Positions 23,259-40,789 of a DNA stretch of 64,000 bases are shown here, piece after piece (positions within the stretch are counted from its first letter, which is position 1; every line of letters begins with the position of its first letter). Made by a program: the position numbers and the translations under genes. The stretch is from positions 186,001 through 250,000 of the forward strand of contig CAJFCV020000001.1 of assembly GCA_904066235.2 (NCBI GenBank), written 5' to 3'. The notes beneath the pieces were generated by a model. That model made no database searches. It was given only the letters and a program-made list of their open reading frames with translations, and was not told where the DNA came from. Source of the stretch: Bursaphelenchus xylophilus. Its lineage: Eukaryota; Nematoda; Chromadorea; Rhabditida; Aphelenchoididae.

Positions 23259-23513
23259 CAGGGTGTTTCAAGAAATTCCCCGGAAAGTAATCGTCGATTT
23301 CTCGGCGCTCAGTCAAGATATGCAAAAAAATTTTTTTGCATATTAAAGAAGAATATGGGCGGTTTTTTGCCTATGAAAATCATTTTCTCCGCCAACGCGG
23401 AAAGCAGTGAATTCGGCGGAGACTTTTGGGCACTTTTTTGGTCATCACACCCATCTTAAACGCTTATTTGTGGTTTCTGATGGTTGAAATGAGGATTTTT
23501 GCCAATGTATGTG

Positions 23514-24461
23514 AGTAGTAATAAGAGGTAGTTTCTGGCACTAAATTTTGCATCCACTGGAAAAGGGGGGAGGAGCCGGCGCGGGGTGCCGTAAATGAGA
23601 GAGTGTGGGATTGGAGGAGAGTGGGGAGAGAGGTGAGGGAATTTTTATGGTATGGTAGTACTGTAAAGATGAGAGAGTGTGGGATTGGAGGAGAGTGGGG
23701 AGAGAGGTCAGGGGAATTTTGCGGTCAAATTTCAAAAAAGATGAGAGGGTGTCGTAATTGAAAGGACGCGATGAAATTGCGGTAAAAAATGAAAAAGATG
23801 AGAGAGTGTGGGATTGGAGGAGAGTGGGGAGAGAGGTCAGGGGAATTTTGCGGTCAAATTTCAAAAAAGATGAGAGGGTGTCGTAATTGAAAGGACGCGA
23901 TGAAATTGTGGTAAAAAATGAAAAAGATGAGAGAGTGTGGGATTGGAGGAGAGTGGGGAGAGAGGTCAGGGAATTTTGCGGTCAAATTTCAAAAAAGATG
24001 AGAGGGTGTCGTAATTGAAAGGACGCGATGAAATTGTGGTAAAAATGAAAAAGGGGAGAGAGTGTGGGATTGGAGGAGAGTGGGGAGAGAGGTCAGGGGG
24101 ATTTTGCGGTAAAAAAAAAATTGAAAAAGGGTGAGAAAGTGGGGAAAGGAGGAGGATTGCGGGTTGTTGCGCAACCTAGAGGTTGCGGGAGGGCAAGAGG
24201 TTGCGGGGTGTTGCGCAACCGAGATGTTATGAATGTTGCGCAACCTAGAGGTTGCGGTAGGTTAAAGAGTTTATGATTTATGTCTGTGATTTTTTTCCGG
24301 AAAAAGCGGAAGGATCAAGAGTAAGTCTGGTCCATCAATAAAGGTTGATGACCCTTCAATAAACTTTTCGACTCAATGATGATGAAATAATTTTTACCCT
24401 TTTCAAAAGGATTAAGAATCCAATAACTTTTATTCGTTTATTCAAAAAAAAAATCTTTTAA
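23514..24461. repeat. Polinton left terminal inverted repeat
   Basis: It mirrors 40790-41710. Its outer half is a tandem array of about 130-base units (GATGAGAGAGTGTGGGATTG, GAGAGAGGTCAGGG, TTTTGCGGTCAAATTTC, GGACGCGATGAAATTG) with about three and a half copies. The inner half has several GTTGCGCAAC palindromes (24167-24260), then unique sequence down to AATAAACGAATAAAAG in mirror orientation. Confidence 0.93.
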
Positions 24462-24823
24462 ATATTTGTATAAAAAATAAGATCAGATTGAGGGACTTCA
24501 GTGTGACGTTTGGTAACAGGTGTTAAATAAATTTGAATTTCATCTCCGTCAAAGAGACATCTAGTGTCGCTCTCACATCCATCATCTTTATCGTACAGCG
24601 AAAAGAACCACAGCTTCTCACCGCATTTGCTTTGAACAGGTTTCAGACGACAAATCTTACGCCCACGGAATTTCATGTAAAAATTCTAAAAAAAAAAAAC
24701 ATAAAATATATGATATTAAAAACTTACACTAAAATTTATTAACTTCAAAGTATTGATATCGACCCCATCAATGGACACGGCGTATGTCTTCCGGATATAT
24801 TCGTTAAGGGTAATCGAAATCAT
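24458..24823 (-). CDS. Polinton small protein of unknown function
   Basis: Two exons, 24823-24728 and 24685-24458, give 107 residues. The intron is 42 bases (GTAAGTTTTTAATATC...TTTTTTAG), phase 0. The protein begins MISITLNEYIRKTYAVSIDG. It contains a cysteine pair region (CGEKLWFF...CESDTRC) and ends ...DLIFYTNI. The stop codon lies at the inner edge of the terminal repeat. I do not recognise the family. It is divergently transcribed from the gene at 24913, across a short hairpin. Confidence 0.7.
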
Positions 24824-24860
24824 GAGGGCGGAGCTAGAAAAAGATTGGGGCTAAACTCCA

Positions 24861-24908
24861 CGAGGCGAAAATAAGCAAATGACCTCATTTGCTTATTTTG
24901 TCTCCTCG
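24861..24908. promoter_or_regulatory. Hairpin between two divergent Polinton genes
   Basis: The arm CGAGGCGAAAATAAGCAAAT (24861-24880) is mirrored by ATTTGCTTATTTTGTCTCCTCG (about 24887-24908), with a 15-base perfect core and a very short loop. It sits between the starts at 24823 (minus) and 24913 (plus). A bidirectional promoter or protein-binding site is inference. Confidence 0.6.
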
Positions 24909-24912
24909 CGAT

Positions 24913-25753
24913 ATGGCTGCGCCTATTATGACGGAGGAAGAGAGGACGCGCGCCTCTTTTCTGATCAACCCAATGATGGATACGACAACATCCAAAACTG
25001 TAGTCGTCCAGGTCCTCAAGACCTTCAACAGCGAGGAGTCCAGGACAATTTGTGCAACTGATTGCTTTAACAATCACATCACTTTAGAATGGCCGTTCCC
25101 TGATTTTAATATGGGAGGTGAGGCAATATATCCGGGCACACTTCTGAAGCTGGATAATACAGAGGTCCAGAAAAATTTGGCCGAAAAGGTAATTTTTGTT
25201 GATGACACTACTGTTGTAAAACATCTTGGAGGAACCACAAAGAGAAGCGAGTTTTATGAAATGTGCCAAAAAGCACGTCAAGAAGATAAGTAAGTTACGA
25301 TTTGTATAATACAAGATTTTTAGGAATACGGAGACGGTTATCATTCTGAGAATTTGGAAGAACAACAGACCTGCTGACGGAGGTCCGGATATGGTAATAA
25401 ATGGAGCTGACATGTTCAAAAGACCGATTGTAATATATGTAAATGCACATAATAACGTCTCAAAGTTCTCGCCTCTACGAGAAGGACATGTTTATGATCT
25501 TAAAAATGTGGAGAAATTTCCTCATAATGCCGACGATGTGCATCACAAAATAACTCCGAATTCTATGATCACGGTTCTGGGAATCAAAAATTTCTCTCGT
25601 CAATTGAACTGCCAATGTATAAATGGCGAATGGAAGATGACTGAAGTCGTCTTTCCCCATTACGTAAATAAACTCCCGGACTACGATGAGAAAAACAAGG
25701 AAAATGTCACACCGAAAAGAGCGAAAATGCCTCTGAAGCAGAGAAAACTTTAA
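24913..25753 (+). CDS. Polinton protein of unknown function, 268 residues
   Basis: Exons 24913-25289 and 25324-25753 are joined across a 34-base intron (GTAAGTTACG...TTTTTAG) so that the split Lys codon is restored. I chose the ATG at 24913; an in-frame TTG upstream is not needed. The protein starts [20 protein letters not shown] and has alternating hydrophobic segments suggesting a beta-rich fold ([25 protein letters not shown]). It ends in a basic tail ([14 protein letters not shown]) that could be a nuclear localisation or DNA-binding extension. A single-stranded-DNA-binding role would fit a replicating element, but no motif proves it. Confidence 0.75.
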
Positions 25754-25821
25754 TTGTCATATATATATATATTTTTTTAAGGAATCGTGCTATAAATAAA
25801 CATACTTTTGTAAATTTGGAA

Positions 25822-26853
25822 TTATAGCTGAACCCAAGAATTTTTTGATGAGGGAAATCCAATCCATTTGACAAACCCTTCTTTAATGCCCTTACGCAAT
25901 CGTGTTTTGAGAATCTTTTCGATTCGATATTCAGTATCTTCAGAAGTCAGCGAAAGTTCTTCGGTGTAAAATCGGCCCTCAATCGGTTCGCCTTCCGAGT
26001 CAACAAGTTCAAAAGTAATGGGGTTAGTTCTATTAATTTTTGTAATCTTGAAAATTTCATCTGTAAAGGTAGTCCAGTAGCCCTTATCAAAGTCCCCGGC
26101 CTGCCGTGAAATCCTGACCCAATCCCCCACCTTGAACTTGGGCTCTTTGGCTTTTGGGGAATCAGATTGATAAATTTTTTTCCAAATTTCGAACCAGTTT
26201 GAGCTATTAATATCCTTAGGTTTCAAGCCTGTGCTCCTACACACAGTATTGTTGATGGCGTTAATAAACTTGTCCAGCACACCAATCCAATTCAAAGTGT
26301 TTTGTGCGGAAAAGTATTTGTATAAACGAGATTTTAAAGTTCTAATTCCTCTCTCTGCAACTGCTGCTTTGATCTCCGCGTTTTCTCCATGGCGAAGCTC
26401 CAAGTTTTTTGAATCCAAAAAGTTTTTGACATCTTTGGCAACAAACTCTTTGCCCTTATCCGTAAAAATCACCTGGGGGATTTGCGGCATTTTTCTGAAC
26501 ATACATTCGAATGCTTTGAGCATATCCGAAGACTTTTTGGAGAGAACAGGACAAGCAAAGAACCTGCGCGACATTACGTCAACCCCCAATAAACAATATT
26601 TGTAGCCCTTGTTGTATTTTGAAAGAGCCTGAAAGTCCGCCAAATCCATTTGCACATCCGTCATGAACCCTGAGGGGATAGTCTTCAAACGATTGAATCT
26701 TCGACGTCTCGGTTTATGGAGACTATACGAAAAATCACGTGCCAAGATCCGCCGAACATCTTCGTATTTTAGCTTCTTTGTTTTTGCCAAACGAGAAGGC
26801 CCTGTGTATGCAGAGGGATCGTCTAGATCACGAAAGCTTTTTAAAATGCTCAT
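25822..26853 (-). CDS. INT: Polinton retroviral-type integrase with chromodomain
   Basis: 343 residues, intronless. The catalytic core of the rve fold has D70 in QMDLADF, D132 in IFTDKGKEF and E167 in AVAERGIRTLK, that is a D,D-35-E arrangement. It is followed by the basic WVRISRQAG segment typical of the C-terminal domain. The last 40 residues (YRIEKIL...GFVKWIGFPSSKNSW) form a chromodomain, as in other Polinton integrases. It should insert the element, making the 6-base target duplication seen at the ends. The N-terminal zinc site is not evident. The start codon lies 54 bases from the divergent gene at 26907. Confidence 0.93.
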   Translation of the reverse strand: MSILKSFRDLDDPSAYTGPSRLAKTKKLKYEDVRRILARDFSYSLHKPRRRRFNRLKTIPSGFMTDVQMDLADFQALSKYNKGYKYCLLGVDVMSRRFFACPVLSKKSSDMLKAFECMFRKMPQIPQVIFTDKGKEFVAKDVKNFLDSKNLELRHGENAEIKAAVAERGIRTLKSRLYKYFSAQNTLNWIGVLDKFINAINNTVCRSTGLKPKDINSSNWFEIWKKIYQSDSPKAKEPKFKVGDWVRISRQAGDFDKGYWTTFTDEIFKITKINRTNPITFELVDSEGEPIEGRFYTEELSLTSEDTEYRIEKILKTRLRKGIKEGFVKWIGFPSSKNSWVQL

Positions 26854-26864
26854 GATCTGTGCAC

Positions 26865-26876
26865 AGTATATAAATG
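26865..26876 (+). promoter_or_regulatory. TATA-like box AGTATATAAATG
   Basis: It lies about 37 bases ahead of the ATG at 26907. The same AGTATAAA-type core sits at similar distance ahead of other Polinton genes. Confidence 0.55.
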
Positions 26877-26906
26877 TTTCTTTTTTATAGTAGAAAAAAT
26901 ATTATC

Positions 26907-27277
26907 ATGGAGTTGTTTAACTGTACCTCAACATCAGAAAGTTCAATCGGTAACTATTTTTCATATTCTGCTTCGTACGAGACAAAGAAACCCCGGAATG
27001 CAACTGTTCGAAATATTGAAAGGCTTGTAAAAGAACTTGTAGACAGATACTCAAAAGGTTGGAGACTAACTTGAATTATCATATTGTTATAGGTTTCAAT
27101 TACATTACTATGCACATTTCTGGGGAGATGGATCTCGATGAGTTTAAGGTGGAGGCATTGCCATTAAAAGATTTCAAGCCTTCAGATGTTATTAGAGCCT
27201 TTTGTCATGCTTACAGCTGTACGAGAACTTTCACGAATACTCCCTTTAACTTGCAATTATTATTTATTAAACAATAA
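26907..27277 (+). CDS. Polinton small protein of unknown function
   Basis: Exons 26907-27057 and 27093-27277 give about 111 residues. The 35-base intron (GTTGGAGACT...TTATAG) splits a Gly codon. The product starts MELFNCTSTSESSIGNYFSY and has a basic helix-like stretch (NATVRNIERLVKELVDRYSK), then an acidic segment. No domain is recognised. It is preceded by a TATA-like box and is convergent with the large minus-strand gene that ends at 27280. Confidence 0.65.
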
Positions 27278-27279
27278 AT

Positions 27280-28773
27280 TTAAAAAACCGCCAGAGGTTT
27301 GAAACATAAAGTTAAACAAGTAATGCCATAATCAAAAGGGCATAAACGTCCATCTAGAGTTCTAATTTGAACATGTAATACAGAGATCTCCCTTGCTCTA
27401 ACAGGTATCATTAACGGTTGATCGTAAATCTGTTCCACAACATCCCCCGGTTTGCCTTTTACTGTAACCATACGAAGCATAGGTGTTTGAAAACTGCCGA
27501 CAATAACCTGTTCAACTAAATCGTCAACGTATACGGCTAGGTTCTTGATGCCACCACTGAGATCAGGAGAGAATGGAGCGACAGTTTCGTTTACAATTTC
27601 CCCATAATCCGAAAACCCTAGAGTGTACTTTAATTGGGGTGAGAACTCAATCTTCCCCACTACTTCATGATTAACATGTGTTTTCACACGCTGAATTTTC
27701 TTGTCGTATAATATTGCGAAATCGGAAGATCTTAAAGGTCTCAGGTTATACATTGCTTTGATTGGCTCTTTCACCGTTTTATGAGGGCGGTTCAATTCAT
27801 AGACGGGGACCTTCAAAGGTTCAGTCTCAATACGTCTCGTGCCAACCAGGGCAAGGGGGCGTGACATTCTGGGATACTCAACATCCATAAAACCAATCGC
27901 AGGATTGTGCGTAGGCAGATGGTCGGTCGAAACCGGGGAGAAGGAGGTCGCGCCGCTTTTGTTCTTGGCAGATTGGGAGTTGTTGTTATTCGGGGCCTTT
28001 TTTTCATTTTCGAGAGATAAATTGCCTTTTTGTATATTATTGGAAAGGTGTGATGACGAGGCCTTTGAGGATGCAGAGGGAGCGGTATGTTGTGCCCCTG
28101 TTAGTGTTGTTGTAGATGGAGTAGCTATGCTAGTAGTAATTGGATTGCTAAGAGTAGACGGTTGTAAAACAGGCGGATTAGAAGGAGGCAAAGGGCTAGG
28201 TTGAGCAGCACCATGAGGAAATGTAGTACTTTTAGCAGTATCTCTAGTAGTATTTCGAATACCCCCCGGATTATTTCTAGTACCAACATCAGCAATATTA
28301 GTATTAGAAACGTTTGGAAGAGAAACATTTTGTACCGCGGCTTTTGTCAAAGGGATTGGATTTCCCTCATCAGTCTTCACAGACTTCTTTAATGCGACAT
28401 CCATCTTTTTACCCTTTTTTAAAACCTTTGGCTCTTCCGGAGCATTTCTTTTACGACGCCCCTCTCCCTTCTCAAGCTCTTCTTGAACCACCGAATTCAA
28501 ATATGTCACCAAACTCTCAATTGTATTAAAACTCCCTTTAGGGATGTGTATTCTCAAGATTGCGTAAGCAGTTGTAAGATCGATATATTGCCCATCCAAG
28601 GTCCCGATAGAAGCCCATGAATGAGGATAGACAATGCTCTGTAAACCACATAAATAGGGGGCGTCAAATGTCAAGGGTTTAGGCAACACGATTTTGAAAT
28701 CAGCAGGGGTATTTTTCCCAAAGGTGTTACTAGGATCGTTGCTGGGAAGCACAATAAAAAATGACGAACGCAT
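27280..28773 (-). CDS. Polinton virion-type protein with LPSN...YPHSW N-terminal domain
   Basis: 497 residues from MRSSFFIVLPSNDPSNTFGK; an ATG three codons earlier (28782) is equally possible. The N-terminal pattern, LPSN then F.I.LP.PL and a YPHSW motif, recalls a domain I associate with Polinton-like elements of many animals and suspect is a minor capsid, penton or fibre component. I cannot prove which. Residues about 115-370 are low-complexity, rich in Ser/Thr/Pro/Asn, with KK/KR clusters (GRRKRNAPEEPKVLKKGKK). A second folded domain covers the last 130 residues. The gene is divergent from the TFIIB-like gene at 28816. Confidence 0.8.
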   Translation of the reverse strand: MRSSFFIVLPSNDPSNTFGKNTPADFKIVLPKPLTFDAPYLCGLQSIVYPHSWASIGTLDGQYIDLTTAYAILRIHIPKGSFNTIESLVTYLNSVVQEELEKGEGRRKRNAPEEPKVLKKGKKMDVALKKSVKTDEGNPIPLTKAAVQNVSLPNVSNTNIADVGTRNNPGGIRNTTRDTAKSTTFPHGAAQPSPLPPSNPPVLQPSTLSNPITTSIATPSTTTLTGAQHTAPSASSKASSSHLSNNIQKGNLSLENEKKAPNNNNSQSAKNKSGATSFSPVSTDHLPTHNPAIGFMDVEYPRMSRPLALVGTRRIETEPLKVPVYELNRPHKTVKEPIKAMYNLRPLRSSDFAILYDKKIQRVKTHVNHEVVGKIEFSPQLKYTLGFSDYGEIVNETVAPFSPDLSGGIKNLAVYVDDLVEQVIVGSFQTPMLRMVTVKGKPGDVVEQIYDQPLMIPVRAREISVLHVQIRTLDGRLCPFDYGITCLTLCFKPLAVF

Positions 28774-28815
28774 ATCTAACATACAAATCACTAACCGTTT
28801 TGTTTTTATAGTGAC

Positions 28816-29608
28816 ATGGAGCGTTTGACGTGCCCCTTTCATACAGAGGCGGAGTTGATAGAAGATTTTAGATGTGGAGATCTGATTTGCCCAGAGTGTG
28901 GCGTCGTTGTCGGCGAACGGATCTTTGACGTCTTAAATGATGTGCCTTTTTATACCACAACACCTACATCAAAAATGTCTGAAGAGAATACAAAAATATT
29001 ACAAGAGATGACCAGTAAAGGACATCTGCCCTCAAGCATTGAAAAGGATGTTTCAATCCTATTTGACAGAATCAAAGACTATGTAAAAAACACTAGTGAC
29101 AAACATGTTTTAGCCACTTGCTTGTACATAACATGTCGTAAAAATGGGGTTCCACGGAGTTTCAAAGGTTATCAATGACCCAAGCGTTTCATTTTTCCCT
29201 TTTTAGAAATCTCAGAATTGTCGGCGGTTAACATAAAGAAGATCTATAAATGTTTCAAACAGATCCCCGGAAATATTGCCAATGCAAACAAACCGATTGG
29301 AGTCGAGGAATATGCAAGCAGATTTTGCGCTTATCTAGGGCTCTCCTATAAAAGACATGCTCAACTAGTAAAAATGGTTCATACAGTTCAAAATAAAAGT
29401 GTGCTGACGGGGTAACATATATCAATCTAAAAAATAAAAAATGTTCAGAAATCCTCTTCTTTCAACTATCGCTGCAACTTTATACTACATGTGCAGAGAA
29501 GAATACACACTAATGGACATTTACAGGGCAACAGATGTGAGCAAGAATACACTTCGTAAACTACAGAAACAGATTGAAAAAGTCTTCGAGGAAGAAAAAT
29601 CCGACTGA
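28816..29608 (+). CDS. TFIIB-like transcription initiation factor in the Polinton
   Basis: Exons 28816-29167, 29207-29411 and 29449-29608 give 238 residues; introns are 39 and 37 bases. The N-terminus is a TFIIB zinc ribbon with C6, H9, C25 and C28 (CPFHTEAELIEDFRCGDLIC, then PECGVVVGERIFD), the same C-x2-H/C...C-x2-C plan and flanking residues as cellular TFIIB. It is followed by cyclin-type repeats, with the linker equivalent NGVPRSFKEISELSAVNIKK and a second repeat around SRFCAYLGLS and LLSTIAATLYYMCREE. It should bridge promoter DNA, TBP and RNA polymerase II. It is shorter than cellular TFIIB (over 300 residues), with a reduced ribbon-cyclin linker and a clipped C-terminus. Capture from a host gene is inference. 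Confidence 0.93.
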
Positions 29609-29756
29609 CCCCCTTTTATCGTTAAATGTTCCCCTTATCCTTACACCTATTTACAATGTTTTGATTCCCTCTTATTATCATATATTTTTCGTGAACTGTT
29701 GGCGTGTTATTATCGTACCTTTCTTAATTCAATTAATAAAGAAAAAAATTTTTTAG

Positions 29757-32700
29757 ATGACTAACGAAATAGAACAACCACCTTCCAAGAGAAGGCGTCT
29801 TACACCCCTGAGGGACTTATCGAATATAAGAGACCCGGCCGTCGATTATCATAGATCGGCTCCCAATTTTCGCCAATGCTCGGAAACCATTATGGAAGAG
29901 CAGACAAACTCCAATCATCCACCTTCCAAGAGAAGGCGTCTTACACCCCTGAGGGACTTATCGAATATAAGAGACCCGGCCGTCGATTATCATAGATCGG
30001 CTCCCAATTTTCGCCAATGCTCGGAAACCATTATGGAAGAGCAGACAAACTCCAATCATGAAGAATCAATAAAAATGACAACCCAAGAACAAAATAATAC
30101 ATTGTCCCTTGAAGACATTCTCAGGCCCGACTTTAAGGTCTTAGGGCCCGCAGAACTCATGCAGTACATGCAGCTACTCGAAAGGTATCTCTTGTTTTTT
30201 TCTCTGATTCATTTTTTAGTGATGATCTCTCAAACATCCCATCGAGTTCTTCACATAATCCCCGCGAAATGATGATGCAAAAACTTTTGGAAGATCTCGA
30301 CTTTTACAAGGAATTCTCAGAAAAATTTTCCTCGTCAAGATCATCTAGAGAAATATTGGTTTCTGATCCGTGCTTTGACATGGCAAGGTTTTTAGGAGGC
30401 ACAGATACCCTCCCTGAATTTGACGATTTTTTCAGACCTCTCCCTCAAAAAGGTCGGGGGTAAGTGCAATAATCGTATAAAAAAGTCAAAAAATTTTATT
30501 ATAGAATACAATTCTTCCGTGTCGGAGCCTCTCGAGTTAAAACGTCAGAGAGATTTAAATGCTACTCAAGAGAACAAAAGTACCATATACACATTAGTGA
30601 AAACATGAGTGATTTTGAAAAACGTTTCAATCAGCTTGTAGAACAATCAGTCAACGAGTGCCTCAGAGAAGGTAAACACTTTAAAAAAAAAATCAAATTT
30701 AATTTCTAGTTGAAAGAGGAGGATCAGAAAGGGCCATGTATGTAGGTGTGAGAGTATCGTCCGATAACTTAACGAGACCTCTAAATCATTTCTCCAAAAG
30801 AAATGTTTTCGATCCTAAACATCTTTACACAAAATTATTCAAAATTGCACAGTCATCCAAAACTCCAAGCTTGTTGGGGAAACCCTTTGTACTCAACATA
30901 ACAGTTCTATATGGCAGAATCGGTGGCGCTCCCCCGACACGACAGACAACTAGATCCTTTTTGGAGACAAGTACAGGCATTTTCCATGTTAACACTCAGA
31001 AGAATGATTGTCTTCCTGTATCCATAAACATCTCTAGGCTTGCAACTACCAAGGATCTTCCGGGCCATAAAAAATCTGAACGAAAATTGTACAAGGCTCG
31101 AAAATTTACAAAACCAACAGAATGTGCTGAACTAAAAGAAGCATACAAACATTTTAAGGCTGCAAGTTTAACAGGAAAGGAAAGCATCGAGTTCACGGTT
31201 GGCCTCTGGGAAGCTTTCATGGACCAAAAATACCCAGAAGCCGCTCCACATAAAATTATAGTTTTTGATCGGAGATCTTTTGAGCACGGATGGAGTTACC
31301 CGAAACTGGAGAAGGATGAGATTTTGGATGTAAAAACTCCAATTATGCTTTATTACCACGACAATCACTACGACTCCATATGGAGTCCCACTGCTTTCTT
31401 CGGAGTCAGATCTTTCTCCAATTTATGTTTCAGTTGTCGGAAATTGATGAGAGAATCAATCGATCATACAGCTAGATGCCAGAAAAAATGCACCAAGTGT
31501 TGTCGTATAGGAAACGACTTTCCTTGTAAGGATGATGGCTTTGAAAAGAAGTGCGCCGCATGTACAAAAAAGTTTTTAAACAAGGATTGCTATGAACACC
31601 ATCTGAAGAAAAACATTTGCTCTTATTACAAAAAATGTGACAAATGTGATCAGGCATATTCAAAAAAGAATGGGCATTTATGTGGATTAAGTTTTTGCGT
31701 GTCATGCCGAGGCTTTCACGAAGTCGGGAGTGAGTGTTACGTCAACCCCATACCTGTGCCTAAAAAACCTGTCAACTACAACTTGTGTGCCTTTGACTTT
31801 GAAACTACCACCACTCCTTTGAACGATAACTCGAACAGAAGTCAACACTCTGTAAATTTCGCATCAATTCACAAGGCCTGTACAACTTGTATGGCAAACG
31901 GTAAATGGAGAGACGAAGAGACTCCATGTGAAAAATGTGGAGAGCATCTAAAGACGTTTAGTATTCCTCATGGTGACTCCGAAAATGTTGTCAAAGACGT
32001 ATGGGAGTATCTAAAAAGTTGCGCAAAAAAGATACCAGTCCTCGCAATAGCACATTTCGGAGGCAAATTCGATTGTCATTTGCTCATGAAAGAAATAAAC
32101 AAAGACAAGAGTAGGTCATTGCAACAAATTCAAATATTTTTTTCAGCCATCTCCAAGATCGATATGATCTTGACAGGGGCCAAATATTACACAATTAATG
32201 TCGCTGGAACTGCTGGAGCTTTCACAGAGGTCAAATTTACAGACTCTTTTAATTACCTCCAAATGCCTCTCGGATCGATGCCAAAGGCTTTGGGTCTTGA
32301 AGTTGATTCCAAGGGGACATTCCCCCATCTCTTTAACACTCCTGCTCACTATCAAGCTGACCTCCCTCATCATCCGGATATTCAATATTATTGTCCAGAC
32401 AGTTTGAATGCGAACAAAAGACAAGAGTTGCTTGACTTTTACGAAGAAAATCGGGATAAACCTTTCAACTTCAAACAACAGTTGTACGATTATGGAATTC
32501 AAGACACCAGAATCCTGCTGCATGCCTTAGTAAAGTTTAGAAGTATGATTCAAGAGCATTGTCCTACGGACGATGTATTATACTACTGTCCAACCCTTGC
32601 TTCTTCATGTCTGAGAATCTGGCGAATGTTAGACCTGGAGGAAAGGACCGTCATCAGAACTCCTACTATTGGGTTTGGAGATTTTATACAACAATCAAAA

Positions 32701-34620
32701 GTGGCATTACTTTTCTTCAGATGGCTGAGAGACAAAAAGGACATGAAAGATCTCCAATTTAGGGATAATGGGGAAAAAAGGTTAGAACAAAAACAAAAAT
32801 AATAAAAAATTTTTATAGAGTTGAGATTGTCATCGACGGAAAGGTCCACAAAATCTCGATAGATGGGTTCTTGGAAAGGCAGAATGAGAAACCTTTGGCA
32901 TTGGAGCTAAATGGTTGCTATTATCACGGGTGCAAAGATTGTTGTAAAGATCTCGGAGACCGTTTGCCCTCTGGAATATCTGTAAAAGAAGGGTTACTAA
33001 AAACAGAAAAAAGAGTAAAAGCTCTCGAAGATTTGGGATTTGAAGTCCTTGTTTATAAGGAATGTGAGATTAGGAAAATGTTACAAGAGGACGACGAAAT
33101 GTCTGCTTATTTTGAGCAGAGATTCTTTTCGGCGGGTTCTATCAGACTCCGAGATGCCTTCCATGGTGGACGAACTGCTACGCAATGTCTCAAATTTAAC
33201 GCTAATGAAAGGAAAGGAATAGGATACACAGACATTCAGAGTCTTTACCCTTATATCATGGCGACCTATGCAATGCCCATAGGGATACCTACACCCTTAT
33301 ACATTCAAAATTATGATGTGAATTGGGAATCTGAAGCAGACATTGAGCATGATGGGTTGTATAAAGTTGTTGTTCTTCCTCCTCAGAATCTCGCGCTTCC
33401 TGTCCTCCCGATTACCTGTAACAAAAAGTTAATCTACCCTCTATGTTATTCATGTGCTCAGGAGAATCAAGGAGCCAGCTACAACAAAAACTTGGTATGC
33501 GAACATGGAGAGGAAGAGAGGTCCTTTTTGACAACTACAACATCAGTTGAACTTAAAAATGCCCTCAGGAAGGGATACAAAGTCAAGAAAATATTCGAAA
33601 TTTTGAAATTTAATGAAATGTCGGACGCCCTATTCAAACCCTATGTATATAGGTTTTTAAAAACCAAGCTTGAGGCTTCGGGAAAACCTTATGATGACGA
33701 GGCAAAAAATCAACAATTCAAGGAGGAAATTAAGCGAAGATATGGGTTTGAAATTGACGAGGGCAAATGGTCTAAAAATCCTGCTCTCCGAACAATCTCC
33801 AAGTTGTATCTCAATAGTTTATGGGGAAAATTGAGTATGAGAACGGATCTTCCCAAGGTAACGAATGAGCACATTTTTTGTAATCTGATTTTTAGACTGT
33901 GGTATGTTCCACTGCCACCGAGTTCTACAAGATACTCAACAACTCCACCAATGTGATCAAAAGTGTTGATTTGGTGGAGGATGATAAAATATACATTAGC
34001 TTCAAGACCTCTGAAGAATTCACAACCCCGCTGGAGTTTTCAAATCTGTTGATCCCTACATGGATCACGGCCCAAGCCCGGACCTATCTCTACTCGTTCT
34101 TTGAACAGGTGGAGAGTAAAGGCGAAAAAATTCTGTATTATGATACAGGTAGGTGTGCATGCAAAACAACAACAATCTTTCAGATAGTCTGATCTTCACC
34201 TTTGATAAGGCTTCGGGTGAGTATCCTCTGAAGACTGGAGACTACCTTGGAGATATGGAGTTGGAGAAGAAAGGGAAGGATATCCTCGAGTTTCTTGGAC
34301 TTGGTGCCAAGCAATATGCCTTAAAATATAGGGACGTTGTGACTGGGGAGTTGGAATATGATCTGAAACTCCGCGGAATAAGTTTAAACGGAAAAACATG
34401 TTCGATCATTAACTATGACTCCTTTTCTGGTCTGGTTGACCGAGTTATTTTGGATGGATATCAAGAATCTTTAACAGCTGTCTACGACGAGATTCGCGCC
34501 ATTAAGAACGTTGGAGTTTTCACTACAAATGATAAACAAAAAGTTTATCAAGGTGTTTGTGATAAGGGATATATTGCTAATGACGACGTCACTATTCTTC
34601 CATTCGGTTATGTACAATGA
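29757..34620 (+). CDS. POLB: Protein-primed family B DNA polymerase (pPolB) of the Polinton
   Basis: Eight exons join in frame: 29757-30184, 30220-30459, 30505-30671, 30710-32110, 32147-32780, 32819-33857, 33896-34148, 34184-34620; 1532 residues. Exonuclease motifs: CAFDFETTT (about 641), AHFGGKFDCHLL (about 728), YGIQDTRIL (about 860). Polymerase motifs: DIQSLYPYIM (about 1097), KLYLNSLWGKL (about 1284) and YYDTDS (about 1387), the last assembled across the final intron. A cysteine-rich segment precedes the exonuclease (about 515-620). The 32111-32146 intron is 36 bases and open, so it could be missed. Exon 1 has two exact 47-residue repeats with a KRRR cluster. Exons 1-3 could belong to a separate small gene; splice phases favour one gene. 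It replicates the element from its ends. Confidence 0.9.
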
Positions 34621-34650
34621 TTATTTATTTATTACTTTTTTTATATAATA

Positions 34651-34901
34651 TTATAAATCATACATTTCTTCTTGTAAATAAATTATTGTTATCAAATGAC
34701 GTGAAGATCCATTATTGTAAAATACATACATGGCCCAAGATTCGTTTGGGACTATTTGGACTGAGAGGAATGGCCCCGAGGGCGTCGGATACACGGTAGT
34801 ACTTGAAATAAACAAAAAGTTTTAAAAGATACTTACGTTTTCTGACCCAGATCAGTGGGGATACCAATAAAAGACGAACCACCCTCCTCAGAAGAAGACA
34901 T
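34651..34901 (-). CDS. Polinton small protein, 71 residues
   Basis: Exons 34901-34837 and 34801-34651, with a 35-base GTAAGT...TTTCAAG intron, phase 2. It starts MSSSEEGGSSFIGIPTDLGQ and ends ...YLQEEMYDL. It has no signal peptide or membrane segment and I do not recognise the family. It lies convergent to the polymerase gene, downstream of the protease on the same strand, and an AGTATAAAAG box lies upstream at 34948-34957. Confidence 0.6.
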
Positions 34902-34951
34902 GACGTTTTTTTTTAGACGTTAAATGTCTTTTCTAACCAGAACTATCACTT

Positions 34952-35512
34952 TTATACTCCCCATTTTCCCTCGAGGCGTCTAATCACATTCCTCAGTTGT
35001 TTCTCACTAATATGGGAGAGTGTACCATAAATTGATGTATCCGAAAAACCTCTATTTTTGAGGATCAAATATGCAATACAGTAATGCCCGCAGGCTGATG
35101 AAAACAAGGATTGGACAGGCTTTTGCCAGTAATTTGTATTTGGAAATTTACTTGTAATTTCGTGTGGTGGCGGATCTCCAAAACTGTCGAAATAGAACAC
35201 TCTTTTTTGAGAATCACCGTACAAAGCGACCCAATGTGAACCTGGCTCATAGCTCTTATCGAGATTGTATATGACACTAAACGGGTACTTGGGGGAAGAC
35301 TGACTTGGTCTATCGAAAGCACGTCTAAGAAGCTCGAAGCTAGCGAGGGCGTCAGCTTGATTATTCTTCGGATTTCGTTTTCGTCCATTTATAAGTCCGT
35401 GCACAATAAAATATACAAACAAAACAATAGTGTAAATTATGCTTACAGCACAAAAAATGAGTTCGTTGTAACGATTGCAAGAGTCGGGAAGTTCAGGAAC
35501 TGAAACATCCAT
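34952..35512 (-). CDS. PRO: Adenain-like cysteine protease of the Polinton, with N-terminal membrane segment
   Basis: 186 residues. The catalytic triad is H93 (GSHWVALY), D109 (YFDSFG) and C141 (SSACGHYC), the order and spacing of the adenovirus maturation protease / Ulp1 fold. Residues about 19-40 (IFCAVSIIYTIVLFVYFIVH) form a transmembrane helix followed by GRKRN, so the enzyme may be membrane-tethered; I do not know this as a general feature of the family. Its ATG follows directly on the stop codon of the upstream gene with no spacer. A minus-strand AGTATAAAAG box lies 36 bases before the start (35541-35550). It probably processes virion precursors. Confidence 0.92.
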   Translation of the reverse strand: MDVSVPELPDSCNRYNELIFCAVSIIYTIVLFVYFIVHGLINGRKRNPKNNQADALASFELLRRAFDRPSQSSPKYPFSVIYNLDKSYEPGSHWVALYGDSQKRVFYFDSFGDPPPHEITSKFPNTNYWQKPVQSLFSSACGHYCIAYLILKNRGFSDTSIYGTLSHISEKQLRNVIRRLEGKWGV

Positions 35513-36445
35513 TTAATGCCTTTTCAAAACTTTCGGTGTGCTTTTATACTTCCACGAAAGAACCTTGAATCTGTAGTGTCTTCTTTTCAATAAAACTCCT
35601 CGGGCTACTTGCTTTCTCTCCCTCTTTGTCCGTCCGCTCATAAGTTGATGAATCATATCCTTTGTACCTTCATTCTTGTACATTTTATTTAGAAAATCGA
35701 TGGGAACGGTGTCAGCACCAACAACAGGATTCTTGGCCCACTGTTTGAGAAGAGCTTCAGCATTAAAAGTCGTTGCTTTTCCTTTTTTATCTTTTAAGAA
35801 TCCCTTTTCTGATATCCCAAACGTATCTGGGGCCCGTCGGAGTTTCCCTTTTAAAGAATTTGCAATTTCTAAGGCTTTGGAAGGAGTGATTGGAGGAAGG
35901 GCTTTCCAACCCGTAAAGGGTTGGCGTTCACTTTTTGGAGTCGTATTTTTTGGGGTTCTACGGCTGACAGGTGTAAAAAATTCATGGCCTTCTTCGTTTT
36001 CGGGGTCAGGGGATTGTTCTGATTCGAGGTCGGGGATTTGTTCTGAATTGGGCTCATGTTCTTCTTCCCAGTTCTCAGAATGTTTTGGGACAAACCGACG
36101 TTTTATTTTAACCCTCGGAGTTTTCCCAGCAGTTCTCTGAACTTCCTTATAAATTTTGGCAAACAGTTCCTCGTATGCTCCATCATCATCTACTTTTGAG
36201 ATTGATTTTCCCGTTTTGGCCCCTGTCGATCCATCTTCAAAAGTAACCTTAACAGGTTTATTATCCATCTCTCTTTTTCTGCGAAGATAATCAGGCATTT
36301 GTTGATTATATTTCAAATACTTTGTGCCCACATTGCCTTTTTGATGCAAGGTCTTGTTGACATTTGATTGAGAAAAATCTTCAGAGGTTGTTGTGTTTAG
36401 AATATTATTGTAAAAATCCTCTGGCACTAGGAAAAATTTTTTCAT
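35513..36445 (-). CDS. Polinton basic protein, probable virion component
   Basis: 310 residues starting MKKFFLVPEDFYNNILNTTT. It is highly basic, with an acidic, repetitive middle (SEQIPDLESEQSPDPENEEG) and a strongly basic C-terminus (RTKRERKQVARGVLLKRRHY). Start and upstream stop overlap as ATGA (36445-36442), and its stop abuts the protease ATG. Charge, length and position next to protease and ATPase suggest a capsid-associated or DNA-condensing protein, but I recognise no domain. Confidence 0.75.
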   Translation of the reverse strand: MKKFFLVPEDFYNNILNTTTSEDFSQSNVNKTLHQKGNVGTKYLKYNQQMPDYLRRKREMDNKPVKVTFEDGSTGAKTGKSISKVDDDGAYEELFAKIYKEVQRTAGKTPRVKIKRRFVPKHSENWEEEHEPNSEQIPDLESEQSPDPENEEGHEFFTPVSRRTPKNTTPKSERQPFTGWKALPPITPSKALEIANSLKGKLRRAPDTFGISEKGFLKDKKGKATTFNAEALLKQWAKNPVVGADTVPIDFLNKMYKNEGTKDMIHQLMSGRTKRERKQVARGVLLKRRHYRFKVLSWKYKSTPKVLKRH

Positions 36446-36768
36446 TTTAGGAATAATCTCGACGCTTCAAGTAGTGCAGGAATAATTAAGGCAGCAAATG
36501 GAAGACCGGCTCCTTTCTGAAGATGTTTAAGCCCCGAGGCGGTAGACCTTTTTCGACTCAATTCGCGAATAAAGGTAGCGTATGGCAACAACTTTTTCCT
36601 TTGGTGGGGAGTTAAATGGATGTTCCCTTGAACAAGATTATAACAGATCTCCACAATTGCTTGGACTTGTTCTGGAGAGCAAGAACTTAAAAACAATTTT
36701 CGACTTTCAGGACTCTTGAACGACGCCAATTTTTTTAGAAACAAGACATGCTTTTGAATAAGCTTCAT
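36442..36768 (-). CDS. Polinton conserved small protein, 108 residues
   Basis: It begins MKLIQKHVLFLKKLASFKSP and ends with a Gly-rich hydrophobic segment (GAGLPFAALIIPALLEASRLFL). The pattern (helical N-terminus, AIVEICYNLVQGNIHL, basic middle, hydrophobic tail) resembles a short protein I associate with animal Polinton-like elements, function unknown. A minus-strand AGTATAAATAG box lies at 36796-36806. Its TGA overlaps the next ATG. Confidence 0.75.
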   Translation of the reverse strand: MKLIQKHVLFLKKLASFKSPESRKLFLSSCSPEQVQAIVEICYNLVQGNIHLTPHQRKKLLPYATFIRELSRKRSTASGLKHLQKGAGLPFAALIIPALLEASRLFLK

Positions 36769-36799
36769 AAACTAGATTTTTGGTTGTTCTCTTTGCTAT

Positions 36800-37429
36800 T
36801 TATACTTTGTACACCACCATGGAGTCTGTCGAAAAAATGTTTGTACGTAGTCTCAAATCAACAGGTGTCTTTGGATGTAGATCGATTAAAAGATAGCCGA
36901 ATTGTTCCTTTGTTGCATCACGATATGCTTCCATAAATCCCTTTTTACCGGGGAAAATTTGTGAGCCTAGTGTTCGTACTTGAAGTTCAGCGTTCGGAGC
37001 TCTCATTAAAATGATATATTGGGAATTTATGCGTGGAACACGGAGTTTTGGTTCGAAAATTGATTGACTCAATGTAATCACACCCAAGTTTTGATGATGC
37101 GCCTTCTTTGTGTAAAGCTCTGTGAGGTACTGAGGGTCTATCGATGTAATCAGGTCGTCCAACACAAGGAGCAAAGGTTTTTTTGAATTTTTTATTAGCT
37201 CATCATCCGGGAGTCCTGAAACAACTTTAATTCCCTGTTTTGCTAGATGTGTAACATGTTCTCCAAACTCTCCATAACAATAAACCACATCCTTTGGCGG
37301 GGGATCAAAAATTTTACGCGCATTTTCTATAATTTGGAGCATTAAGGACGTCTTTCCGCTGCCTGAAGAACCTCCTAATAAAAGACCAGATGGTAGGTGA
37401 AGTTTCAACTCCGTAGCAGAGAAAGCCAT
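36800..37429 (-). CDS. ATP: FtsK/HerA-type (A32-like) genome-packaging ATPase
   Basis: 209 residues, intronless. Walker A is GGSSGSGKT (19-27) after a beta strand, and Walker B is LLLVLDD (86-92). A later SQSIF segment fits the sensor position of the viral packaging family. It should pump the linear element DNA into a preformed capsid. The start at 37429 lies 38 bases from a minus-strand AGTATTTAAG box that may also serve the divergent gene at 37504. Confidence 0.93.
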   Translation of the reverse strand: MAFSATELKLHLPSGLLLGGSSGSGKTSLMLQIIENARKIFDPPPKDVVYCYGEFGEHVTHLAKQGIKVVSGLPDDELIKNSKKPLLLVLDDLITSIDPQYLTELYTKKAHHQNLGVITLSQSIFEPKLRVPRINSQYIILMRAPNAELQVRTLGSQIFPGKKGFMEAYRDATKEQFGYLLIDLHPKTPVDLRLRTNIFSTDSMVVYKV

Positions 37430-37460
37430 TGTTTAGCCCGAAATACAAAAATTTTTCTGT

Positions 37461-37470
37461 CTTAAATACT
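37461..37470. promoter_or_regulatory. Shared TATA-like box CTTAAATACT
   Basis: It lies about 38-43 bases from both divergent starts (37429 minus, 37504 plus) and reads as AGTATTTAAG in reverse, a variant of the Polinton AGTATAAA core. Confidence 0.45.
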
Positions 37471-37503
37471 TTTTCTGCTCCGTCTAACGCTCGTTTCTTC
37501 AAA

Positions 37504-37901
37504 ATGTCTCTGAGAATTCAAGATTTCTTGAGGACCAATTGTACGTGTCCCAACAACTTTGACTGTTATCGTCCTTTTGGGTAATTTTTTGCATTAATGA
37601 TTTTTTAAAATGTCCTTTTTAAGGTATCTGGAACCCCTTATATGCTTGGATTCTAATTATAATGTTGGAAAGACGCTCGATGAAAATTGTTTCTTGAACT
37701 TCTCCATCAAATTCTGGCCCTTGGCTAGCTTAATCCTTGGAATAGTTGCTTTCTTCTTCACTGTAAGATCAAATTCAATATATCATTTTATACCGATTTT
37801 AGCTTCTAATCCTCATTTGCTCAGGATTAATTGGGGTCCGTGTGAACAAATGTTGTCAATGTCGTAGCAAGGTCATTGAGGAGATCGATATCAACGAATA
37901 A
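37504..37901 (+). CDS. Polinton small membrane protein with cysteine-rich N-terminus
   Basis: Three exons, 37504-37580, 37624-37762 and 37803-37901, give 104 residues; introns are 43 and 40 bases. The N-terminal half has six cysteines (TCPNNFDCYRPFG, later ICLD and ENCF). It is followed by a long hydrophobic helix completed only after splicing (LASLILGIVAFFF then LLILICSGLIG) and a CCQC-containing tail. If the second intron is ignored, the frame still runs to a stop but loses the second half of the membrane helix, which supports the spliced model. It could be a virion membrane or entry-related protein; I recognise no family. Confidence 0.7.
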
Positions 37902-38035
37902 AACATTGTGGGTTTTTAAAAAAATATTGTTGTGTCCAAAACAAAATGTTAATCATCAATAAAAATTTTTGTAATCACTAGACTTTTGATTCTGGTTTTG
38001 TCATAGATCTTACAGTTGAGGTGCAAGCAGATAAA

Positions 38036-38047
38036 AGTATAAATACG
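38036..38047 (+). promoter_or_regulatory. TATA-like box AGTATAAATACG
   Basis: About 38 bases ahead of the ATG at 38076. Confidence 0.55.
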
Positions 38048-38075
38048 TATGTTTTGACTTATTTGGACACTAGAT

Positions 38076-38537
38076 ATGGTTCTTGTACCCTTTGACTCTT
38101 CGAAAATAGTCGACTTTTCGCCTCAGGGCAAGACTCAATACGGTAGAAGTTTTCAATATGGTTCTGGATTTTCTTCATCTCCCTTTTATGCGGGAAAAAT
38201 GTTTCATCGCGGGATGGGAAGAATACACAGAGGGCATGGCTTAGGATCAGTTCTTGGTAATGTGTGGCGTTATTTTGCTCCTGTCTTGAAAGCTGCGGGG
38301 CAGAGTTTGGGAAAAGAAGCCTTGGAAACGGGGAGTCGTATTCTCGGAGATATGGCTCAACCACAGAGTGAAGATTTGAAGACCATAATGGTTCGCAACA
38401 CCTCACAAGGAGCTCGGAATTTGTTGCGCAAGGCTTCAAATAAATATTTGCATAAAGGGGAGGGAAGGAAACGAAAGGCATCAGGGCGCAAAGGAATGAT
38501 AAAGAAGAAAAGGACCGATGTGTTTGGCATGTACTAA
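38076..38537 (+). CDS. Polinton basic virion-type protein, 153 residues
   Basis: It starts MVLVPFDSSKIVDFSPQGKT. A Gly/His/Arg-rich region leads to an amphipathic segment (WRYFAPVLKAAGQSLGKEAL, then ETGSRILGD) and a strongly basic tail (GEGRKRKASGRKGMIKKKRT). The segment resembles short Polinton proteins compared in the literature with adenovirus core/cement proteins. It lies directly ahead of the capsid gene with its own TATA-like box. Assignment to a specific virion role is inference. Confidence 0.78.
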   Translation: MVLVPFDSSKIVDFSPQGKTQYGRSFQYGSGFSSSPFYAGKMFHRGMGRIHRGHGLGSVLGNVWRYFAPVLKAAGQSLGKEALETGSRILGDMAQPQSEDLKTIMVRNTSQGARNLLRKASNKYLHKGEGRKRKASGRKGMIKKKRTDVFGMY

Positions 38538-38539
38538 AC

Positions 38540-38551
38540 AGTATATAAAGG
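38540..38551 (+). promoter_or_regulatory. TATA-like box AGTATATAAAGG
   Basis: About 39 bases ahead of the capsid gene start at 38582. The best match to a canonical TATA box in the element. Confidence 0.6.
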
Positions 38552-38581
38552 AACATTAGGCCTTACTGCTTCATTATTAAC

Positions 38582-39898
38582 ATGTCGTTTAAGAAGATTG
38601 ATGCTCGAAGTGAAGAGAGTGTTTCGTCATCTCTCGATGTTTTCAATGTCCCCGAAACAAATATATCAGCGTCTCATTCCCAATTTAGTGAATATTTAAC
38701 CCTAAACCCAATTTCTGAAACTCCTTACCAATTTAAAGTAATGCCTGGAAGCTCTTTTGTTGATTTGACAAAAACTTTTCTTATGACATCGATGAAAATG
38801 CAAAAATCATCAGATAATGGTCAAACTTGGATAAATATTGAAGCCAATGATAAGGTCGCTCCTATCCAAGGCATTGGGGCAACCTTTATTCAAAATATGA
38901 GACTACTAATAAACGGCCAGGAGGTTTACCATTCAAATTCTTTACAAAGCTGGAGAACCTACTTTGACCTTTTGCTTAATTTCCCCTCAACTGCCAGTCA
39001 AACTTATCTCTCCTCTCTGGGATGGTATGATAGTGTAAAATTTAACGATGAAACGGACTCGGGGTTCCAAAAGCGCCGCGCAATGTTTGTGGGAGGACAG
39101 GAAGCGCACTTTGTAACAAGGCTTTTCTGCGAGCTCGCAAATGTTCCAAAATTAATGCTTAATCACACGGATCTTGTGTTGGAGATTACGCCTGCAAAGA
39201 ATTTGTTTTGTATTGAGAGTAATGTGACAAATCAAGCAACGCAGTTCCGTCTTACCATAACCTCCTGTAAATTATATGTGAAAACTGTGGATTTAAACGA
39301 TGGTGTGGGAATGGGATTTGCCAATACTTTAATTAAAAATCCCGCAATCTATCCAATCAGGAAAACGGATTTGAAATCCTTTTTCATTTCTCAAGGCAGA
39401 CAAGAATATGTTACAACCTTAAGTACAGACCAGGTCCCTCGGAGGGTTGTTTTTGGTTTAACAAATCACCCTGATGTCCAAGACTCTTCGAAAAAGTCTC
39501 CCTTTAATTTTGTACACAGTGACCTAAGATCCGTTACTCTCTCTGCTAATGGTCAACAATTCCCTTGCATCCCTTATGAAATGGATTTTACAAAAGATAA
39601 TTTTATTAGGGCCTATCATGATTTTAATGAGGCTTTGGGTTTCGCATTTACCGATTATTCATGCACTATCGATAGGGAAATGTACAAAAAGGGTTTTACG
39701 ATCTTTGTCTTGAATATGACAACAACCTTAGAAGATGACAACTGCATGGACTTGATCAGAAACGGACCTGTTTCGTTAAGACTTGCTTTTAACACTCCCG
39801 TCGGGGAATCAGGTCTTAGCCTGATTGCTATGATCGAATATGACGCCACAATGCTTGTCGATAATAACCGAAACGTTCAAATGTCCTACAGCGTATAA
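38582..39898 (+). CDS. MCP: Major capsid protein, double-jelly-roll type
   Basis: 438 residues, intronless. The order of short motifs resembles Polinton capsid proteins: SQFSEYLTLNPIS, then YQFKVMPGSSFVDLTKTFL, a Gly/Ile-rich strand (APIQGIGATFIQNMRLLING), and SLQSWRTYFDLLLNFPSTAS before a GWYDSV turn. The second half has alternating beta-strand-like blocks ending in LIAMIEYDATMLVDNNRNVQ. No signal or membrane segment. It should form the hexon-like shell of an icosahedral particle, implying that this element can make virions. The assignment rests on motif order; a structure prediction would settle it. Confidence 0.85.
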   Translation: MSFKKIDARSEESVSSSLDVFNVPETNISASHSQFSEYLTLNPISETPYQFKVMPGSSFVDLTKTFLMTSMKMQKSSDNGQTWINIEANDKVAPIQGIGATFIQNMRLLINGQEVYHSNSLQSWRTYFDLLLNFPSTASQTYLSSLGWYDSVKFNDETDSGFQKRRAMFVGGQEAHFVTRLFCELANVPKLMLNHTDLVLEITPAKNLFCIESNVTNQATQFRLTITSCKLYVKTVDLNDGVGMGFANTLIKNPAIYPIRKTDLKSFFISQGRQEYVTTLSTDQVPRRVVFGLTNHPDVQDSSKKSPFNFVHSDLRSVTLSANGQQFPCIPYEMDFTKDNFIRAYHDFNEALGFAFTDYSCTIDREMYKKGFTIFVLNMTTTLEDDNCMDLIRNGPVSLRLAFNTPVGESGLSLIAMIEYDATMLVDNNRNVQMSYSV

Positions 39899-40116
39899 AA
39901 AATAGAAAATGTTAGTTTGAAAATCCCTCGGAATTGGCAACAAAACTTTTTTATGGCATTGTGTCTTTTTACCGCAAAAAAAAAATACAAAGAAAAAAAT
40001 GTCGAGAAATAAAAAATGTTTTTTTTTTTTTGTTGTCGCGATTCATTCGGTTATCTTATAATTGTATTATTTTTCAGTGAAACATACTCTGGTCGACACC
40101 GGATACTGAGCGCTTC

Positions 40117-40439
40117 ATGAGTACCCGTATGGTATGCTGTTTTCGACATTTTTATTCTGTTTTCAGATCAAGTTCAAGGGGGATTTAAATGGCTCCTGTG
40201 GTATTTCGGGTCCTTGTGAAGAAGATGAAGACTGTATGTCTTTTGCCCAAAGACCGAATTTGGCGATAACATGTTTGCCGAAAAATTTTGAAGGATTGGA
40301 TACGCTGGTTTCGAAGAATAACAATTTGGTGATCGTAATCTGGGTGCTGCTAGCTGTTATCGTGATCCTCATCCTTTTCAATTTTTACATTTTTTATCGA
40401 AGAAGGGGAAGTCATAAGAGACTCTCCGAGGATATCTGA
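40117..40439 (+). CDS. Polinton small single-pass membrane protein
   Basis: Exons 40117-40131 and 40167-40439 give 95 residues; the 35-base intron is GTATGCTG...TTTTCAG, phase 0. The ectodomain has four cysteines (GSCGISGPCEEDEDCMSF and ITCLPK). A 20-residue membrane helix (LVIVIWVLLAVIVILILFNF) and a short basic tail (YRRRGSHKRLSEDI) follow. I could not connect an upstream signal-peptide exon without meeting a stop, so the true start is uncertain. Second cysteine-rich membrane protein of the element; a surface role is inference. Confidence 0.6.
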
Positions 40440-40789
40440 AAATGCATATCTATCTCTCTTTTTTCATTTGTTATGGATAAAAATTTTATATGAATTGATC
40501 TCGGTTATTTCTTCGTTGAATCTGTTGGAACTTTACGCAACATTTAATCTTGACGGTTTTTTTTTTGAATAAACGAATAAATGGGAGGGTTTTAGCATTC
40601 CGTGGAAAGATTGCGATGCACGTCAAGATTTTGCGCTCAAAGGGTTATCTTTCAACACATAAGTTGGCGTTCTGTTCCCTCTTATGAAAGTGTCCAAAAA
40701 TCACTCTTAATGAAGGTTTCTTTGGAAGGGGTCAGACGAAAGGCGAAATATTGCGTAAAATGAAGAGACTTTCCGTCTTGTTCCAGACT
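40440..40789. other. Polinton intergenic stretch before the right terminal repeat
   Basis: No supported gene. AATAAACGAATAAATGGGAG near 40567 is a direct partial copy of the inner end of the terminal repeat (TTTGAATAAACGAATAAAAG at 40801), so the repeat boundary itself has been duplicated locally. Confidence 0.5.

Follow-up and report, generated by a model that had tools for sequence, protein, structure and literature searches.

Polintons are regarded as a bridge between transposons, virophages and large DNA viruses, and Widen et al. are said to have described, in 2023, nematode Mavericks that carry the host cargo genes wosp and krma. A survey of transposable elements lists Maverick, in the part of the text available, among the superfamilies widespread in plant-parasitic nematodes (PMC11118728). 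For CpV-BQ1, which also has TBP, the available part of PMC12085832 proposes that a TFIIB redirects host Pol II, and megavirus has TBP and RNA polymerase subunits besides its TFIIB (PMC11464507, likewise available in part). Thaumarchaeal integrative-conjugative elements have a TFIIB of their own, mostly located immediately upstream of a ParB-like gene and likely in one operon with it, according to the accessible portion of PMC6563490. Within the available parts of PMC12638062, PMC11464507, PMC6563490, PMC11003980, PMC6401483 and PMC12085832, TFIIB is mentioned only in giant viruses or archaeal elements, and the available part of PMC6211774 makes no mention of it. The literature searched contained no report of a Polinton-borne TFIIB, with Widen 2023 and Jeong 2023 lying outside its coverage and a prior mention in them being possible, and no paper in it brought Bursaphelenchus xylophilus and Polintons together.

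Here we describe an 18.2-kb Polinton of B. xylophilus, located in a stretch of 64,000 nucleotides (the window), that carries a gene for a TFIIB-family protein; both the identity of the protein and its carriage by the Polinton are well supported. The locus resembles the nematode Mavericks bearing wosp and krma in joining a Polinton core to host-derived cargo, but here the cargo is a general transcription factor (PMC10680173, compared in its available part). With CpV-BQ1 and megavirus it has in common a TFIIB on the viral side; however, NCLDV genomes are far larger, the Polinton gene has introns, and whereas both viruses have TBP, none was found in a Pfam scan of 10 frames of the element. The thaumarchaeal elements provide a close functional analogue, being mobile elements with a TFIIB, but they are archaeal, have a partition gene as the neighbour and are unrelated to this one. 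A trimmed, host-derived TFIIB in an animal Polinton would mean that such a factor can be acquired by a small element as well, its source being recorded in the introns. The sequence-only reading knew of no description of TFIIB as standard Polinton cargo, and that it is not fits the diverged loci of the B. xylophilus genome, the protein and viral-contig matches listed and the literature searched.

The gene occupies 28816-29608 on the plus strand and consists of three exons encoding 238 aa, arranged as follows:

28803..28811, plus strand: splice-acceptor-like TTTTTATAG, 4 nt 5' of the ATG of the TFIIB-like gene; possible trans-splice site
28816..29167, plus strand: exon 1, with the zinc ribbon, a short linker and the first half of cyclin repeat 1
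29168..29206, plus strand: intron 1, 39 nt, phase 1, at the codon and phase of a host TFIIB intron
29207..29411, plus strand: exon 2, with the remainder of cyclin repeat 1 and the beginning of repeat 2
29412..29448, plus strand: intron 2, 37 nt, phase 2, at the codon and phase of a host TFIIB intron
29449..29608, plus strand: exon 3, with the remainder of cyclin repeat 2 and, in it, the recognition-helix region

The sequence-only reading had given the same outer coordinates, which are right provided that the two short introns, unstated there, are removed. Both introns have GT..AG ends and the stop codon lies at 29606-29608; alternative splice choices also keep the frame open, and the model adopted is the one continuous with TFIIB. 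The same reading had assigned the product to the TFIIB family on the basis of a zinc ribbon with ligands C6, H9, C25 and C28 and two cyclin segments, and had called for a search with the corresponding profiles. The ligands are those it named, and the spliced protein matched PF00382 with 70.6 bits in two stretches and PF08271 with 32.2 bits, both above the curated cut-offs. Exon 1 alone matched PF08271 (33.8 bits vs. a cut-off of 29) and PF00382 (25.5 vs. 23.6), exon 2 alone had no Pfam match, and exon 3 alone reached 14.3 bits for PF00382, below the cut-off. Among solved structures the best match was human TFIIB (E 2.1e-30), and the match to TFIIIB70 (Brf1) was far weaker (E 0.0024); the protein is thus closer to TFIIB than to the Pol III factor Brf.

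Like the cellular TFIIBs of human, C. elegans and B. xylophilus, the protein has the same zinc ligands (C15, H18, C34 and C37 in human) and two cyclin repeats, and with the B. xylophilus protein it further shares two intron positions. Unlike them, it has 238 rather than 305 aa, lacks about 50 residues of the B-reader/B-linker together with the C-terminal tail, and is changed in BRE-contact residues. The distance from the fourth zinc ligand to the Cys of the first cyclin repeat is 74 residues, the shortest among the matches listed, in which it was measurable for 234 of 235 proteins (the TFIIB-like one included), with a median of 124 and a next shortest value of 91. This comparison covered at least 234 distinct proteins, taken from 3 of 3, the best 120 of 855 and the best 120 of 1921 matches, and the 234 listed are all TFIIBs of full spacing as far as measured. 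Human TFIIB residues 85-120, as well as several between 49 and 81, are without a partner in the Polinton protein. Of the human residues V283, G153, R154 and R286, which we take to be BRE contacts, V283 and G153 are replaced by N and R154 by T, and R286 is kept. In TFIIBs, the zinc ribbon is the surface that docks on Pol II, and the cyclin repeats form the one that faces TBP-DNA. The B-reader/B-linker lies near the active centre and clamp of Pol II and has been connected with the choice of start site and with the melting of DNA (PMC4361453 and PMC12917281, in their available parts). Since most of this region, which characterises a canonical Pol II TFIIB, is absent, we refer to the protein as TFIIB-like rather than as TFIIB.

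The gene lies well inside the Polinton, the features of which are listed below, with the capsid assignments of 38076..38537 and 38582..39898 following the usual Polinton gene order:

23508..23513, unstranded: left target-site duplication TATGTG
23514..41710, unstranded: Polinton carrying the TFIIB-like gene, 18.2 kb; ends common to other genomic copies, both beginning AGTAGTAATAAGAGG
23514..24462, unstranded: left terminal inverted repeat, containing tandem repeats of 129 bp; 94.5% to the right repeat over 955 columns
25822..26853, minus strand: integrase; rve PF00665 42.4 bits, over the cut-off; chromo-like tail below the cut-off
27280..28782, minus strand: PY-type gene, presumably penton/minor capsid; no Pfam match; 42-46% to its relative in the diverged element
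29757..30272, plus strand: orf171, the second cassette gene, with two exact 141-bp (47-aa) tandem repeats
30736..34620, plus strand: family B DNA polymerase (PolB) of viral/organellar type, in three reading-frame pieces
34952..35512, minus strand: adenovirus-type cysteine protease (weak); PF00770 17.3 bits, below the cut-off of 21.3
35513..36445, minus strand: 310-aa gene, also in the diverged element
36800..37429, minus strand: P-loop ATPase, probably the packaging ATPase; weak AAA matches only; 50% to the diverged element
38076..38537, plus strand: probable minor capsid protein, by gene order
38582..39898, plus strand: probable major capsid protein, by gene order
40789..41710, unstranded: right terminal inverted repeat
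41711..41716, unstranded: right target-site duplication TATGTG

The terminal repeats of about 950 bp, which the sequence-only reading had placed around the gene, are real and are flanked by a 6-bp target duplication; an outer inverted-repeat pair (23257-23470/42089-42302) lies beyond the element ends, 23514 and 41710, as fixed by the other copies and the TATGTG duplication. The PY start was chosen at 28782 in an open frame beginning at 28842. PF03175 matched PolB pieces one and two with 55.8 and 93.7 bits, the third piece (34153-34620) being outside the scan, and the candidate for the double-jelly-roll major capsid protein gave no match in Pfam, NCBIfam or PHROG. In the diverged element, the beginning of PolB is free of frame breaks as far as seen, and the three pieces in the window may reflect introns or lesions. 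Elsewhere in the window, at 13734-19754, a 2006-aa open frame looks by eye like a BEL/Pao-type retroelement polyprotein.

Seven genomic copies, distributed over three contigs, carry the capsid gene at ~100% identity together with the TFIIB-like gene. Matching 6-bp target duplications were found in six of the seven (the left end of the seventh, at C1:2.75 Mb, was not found in the stretch examined), from which we conclude that the TFIIB-like gene transposed as part of the element. Over 1,100 nt, four of the six other copies are identical to the window and one has a single mismatch, and the copy at C1:3.53 Mb has 7 mismatches and one gap. The start of the orf171 repeat unit occurs 2, 3, 4, 2, 3, 2 and 2 times across the seven copies. 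The recurrence of the gene inside the same element at seven places of the assembly also bears out its contiguity with the Polinton, on which the sequence-only reading had depended. That an ordinary host TFIIB paralogue, or an assembly error, lies beside the Polinton by chance has nothing in its favour beyond family membership. To the extent that the assembly is reliable, this has been refuted by the seven places, which are spread over three contigs and each have the same capsid gene in their vicinity, the duplications at six of them and the separate host TFIIB locus at C5:4540120; we accord it virtually no credence.

Six further, diverged loci, with 34-57% identity by piece, came out of the search with the capsid gene; several of them are split or contain stops. 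When compared exon by exon in a protein search with E up to 10, best candidates only, none of the six gave a TFIIB match; the same TFIIB search of the genome yielded the seven element copies, the host TFIIB, a probable Brf1 and an orphan fragment at C5:2175523. The diverged element at C2:1.28-1.30 Mb, which is the one of the six examined, has homologous genes in the same order; however, the interval between the start codons of PY and PolB is 51 nt there vs. 1.95 kb in the window, where it contains the TFIIB-like gene and orf171. These two genes therefore constitute a cassette that is present in one family and absent from the C2 relative. As one genome contains both the family that has the gene and a relative that lacks it, the two can be compared directly.

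In the 78.25-Mb, 8-contig genome, the PF08271 loci besides the element copies are the host TFIIB gene (C5:4540120) and a second locus at C2:5239432, which by eye is probably Brf1. Host B. xylophilus TFIIB, the spliced model of which agrees in every residue with a known protein of this species, has 305 aa and four introns, and both introns of the element gene coincide with two of the four: a phase 1 intron between RTFK and E in the host corresponds to the one between SFK and E in the element, and a phase 2 intron between VAG and R to the one between LTG and N, each at the same codon and in the same phase. By simple counting, with three host introns within the aligned ~714 nt, we infer a probability of about 1e-5 for two matches out of two by chance. 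The intron matches therefore favour capture of a genomic TFIIB gene over capture of an mRNA or of an intron-less viral gene. The closest TFIIB among the 234 matches listed is 38% identical over 199 aligned positions, followed by one at 37%, which indicates that the capture is old or the gene fast-evolving.

The sequence-only reading had called for a phylogeny with nematode and viral TFIIBs. In a tree of 40 proteins, which included nematode and other cellular TFIIBs but none that were viral (NCLDV among them) or archaeal, the Polinton protein and the nematodes fall on one side of a branch with support of 98/97. The branch of the element protein is 6.18 changes per column long, and constrained placements were not rejected for nematodes without the Polinton protein (p 0.31), nor for the Polinton protein with Bursaphelenchus (p 0.23), with tylench/aphelench nematodes (p 0.30) or with fungi (p 0.40); given the long branch and the alternatives that it allows, we do not name a donor from the tree. 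We consider it very improbable that a giant virus (NCLDV) or some other mobile element, and not a host genome, was the source of the gene. NCLDVs do commonly carry TFIIB (PMC12638062 and PMC6401483, in their available parts), and a tree built without NCLDV TFIIBs that tolerates a placement with fungi is an unsafe guide; but two introns at host TFIIB codons and phases, the position on the nematode side of a 98/97 branch, even with so long an element branch, and the lack of any relative among the 129 pattern matches listed from viral contigs all argue against such a source.

The TFIIB-like frame is unbroken at ~36% identity to cellular TFIIBs, whereas none of 1000 simulated neutral decays of the host TFIIB coding sequence to 36% identity remained stop-free (mean 7.7 stops), which argues that the gene has probably been maintained by selection over the long term. 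Between two copies, the TFIIB-like gene has 4 changing and 1 silent differences vs. 8 and 11 in the other pieces (integrase, PY, PolB pieces and protease, with orf171, 1:0, outside both sides; Fisher p 0.32), and five differences in the gene are too few to decide on short-term constraint.

Six gene starts of the element are preceded by TATA-type boxes:

26884..26889, minus strand: TATA box of the integrase
28805..28810, minus strand: TATA box of the PY gene, just upstream of the ATG of the TFIIB-like gene
35543..35548, minus strand: TATA box of the protease
37462..37468, minus strand: TATA-like TATTTAA of the ATPase
38038..38043, plus strand: TATA box of the minor capsid gene
38542..38549, plus strand: TATA box of the major capsid gene

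These boxes are located 28-40 nt 5' of the start codons and occur at 6 of 10 starts vs. 0.77 expected from resampled upstream DNA (p 0.0005). The search pattern, in which TATTTAA was permitted, and the distance limits were chosen with the window's element already in view; the relative provides a fresh test. With the same pattern and window, no box was found before the TFIIB-like gene, orf171, PolB or the 310-aa gene; splice-acceptor-like stretches precede the TFIIB-like gene (the TTTTTATAG listed above), orf171 (TTTTTTAG) and PolB (TTTCTAG), and in the diverged relative TTTTCAG stands directly at the ATG of PolB. In the relative, TATA boxes are present at 6 of 8 starts, the capsid box at -59 being the farthest out. 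Presence of TATA as a mark of dependence on the TFIIB-like protein was rejected on this ground. Since the relative has TATA boxes and no TFIIB gene, host TFIIB must be capable of acting on them in that element, and the TFIIB-like gene did not create them. From the arrangement of motifs in the window (26867-38549) and the relative, there look to be two promoter classes, one of replication-side genes and the other of structural and integration genes, and an early/late promoter division in animal Polintons is possible. A occupies the second position preceding the TATA box in 6 of 6 cases in the window's element vs. 1 of 6 in the relative; noticed post hoc, this would fit a changed BRE preference, and we attach little weight to it.

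Our best reading, which we put forward tentatively and which could well prove wrong, is that the protein is an element-encoded initiation factor that works with host TBP and Pol II and serves the element's own promoters. A Polinton lineage would have captured a TFIIB gene from a host genome, most simply that of a nematode, and retained it at the head of a cluster TFIIB-orf171-PolB. The protein may then be made early, together with PolB, and may join host TBP and host Pol II, which would be recruited to the element's promoters, the likeliest targets being the TATA-type ones of the structural and integration genes; the element would thereby become independent of host TFIIB or outcompete it. Consistent with this are TFIIB-family domains that rank well above Brf, carriage at seven places with duplications at six of seven, introns that both match host TFIIB introns, the frame unbroken at ~36% identity where 0 of 1000 neutral decays were, TATA-type boxes at 6 of 10 starts vs. 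0.77, and a position with the divergent PY promoter on one side and PolB on the other, where the relative has 51 nt; other viruses, too, carry a TFIIB thought to redirect host Pol II (PMC12085832, available part). However, the protein lacks most of the B-reader/B-linker, with its role in selecting start sites and in melting DNA (PMC4361453 and PMC12917281, as far as available), such promoters need no TFIIB-like factor if 6 of 8 starts of the relative have TATA, the 10 frames scanned include no TBP, and 4:1 vs. 8:11 changing:silent differences (p 0.32) lend no support to recent constraint. With most of the B-reader/B-linker lost and TATA promoters present in the TFIIB-less relative as well, we regard redirection of host Pol II to element promoters, as proposed by the sequence-only reading, as no more than possible. 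A more specific two-step programme, in which the TFIIB-like gene, orf171 and PolB (acceptor-like, no TATA) would be expressed first, and the B-reader-less, BRE-altered factor would then re-tune host Pol II towards the TATA promoters that precede integrase, PY, protease, ATPase and capsid genes, is conceivable, though we would sooner expect it to fail than to hold.

The missing B-reader/B-linker speaks instead for a competitor or host-shutoff protein that would occupy TBP and/or Pol II, initiate poorly, lower host transcription and so favour the element, and both the preserved folds for docking and DNA binding and the gene's place ahead of PolB would suit this role as well as that of an initiation factor. 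The spacing of 74 residues (vs. a median of 124 and a next value of 91 among the 234 measurable matches listed), the retained zinc ribbon and cyclin repeats, and a TFIIB-less relative that manages with the same kind of TATA promoters are all in line with such a protein. It is the principal alternative and a serious one, yet we think it rather unlikely, given that other TFIIB-like factors work with a divergent reader, as does poxvirus VITF-3 with its B-reader-like element (PMC12917281, available part), and that nothing here points to host inhibition. Less probable still is that the gene is cargo without benefit to the element, like wosp and krma, possibly with a selfish or host-directed role: nematode Mavericks do carry host-derived cargo (PMC10680173, in its available part), the six diverged capsid loci had no TFIIB match, and the ratio between two copies is 4:1, but 0 of 1000 neutral decays were stop-free at such divergence, the gene stands at the head of the PolB cluster, and all seven family copies have it. 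The locus offers a natural test of TFIIB function without the B-reader/B-linker, and of a possible early/late division of Polinton promoters.

Several copies have individual features. For those at C1:2751283 and C5:1544817, only the first 69 integrase residues were matched, at 68% identity and with internal stops, and the integrase region is probably damaged. The protease of the C1:3.53 Mb copy has another frame length than that in the window, matches in two frames and looks interrupted, and at the left end of this copy the first bases of the element occur 5 times at 110-bp steps, a terminal tandem expansion. The orphan fragment at C5:2175523-2175663 is 88% identical over 103 bp to exon 1 of the TFIIB-like gene, and the 9.9 kb around it contain no match to 10 element proteins or to other element DNA; it is either what is left of an older copy or a fragment that was captured, and we treat it as a relic. 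C6 contains 15 instances of an SL1-like leader that has one mismatch, mostly at ~911-base steps, which fits a nematode.
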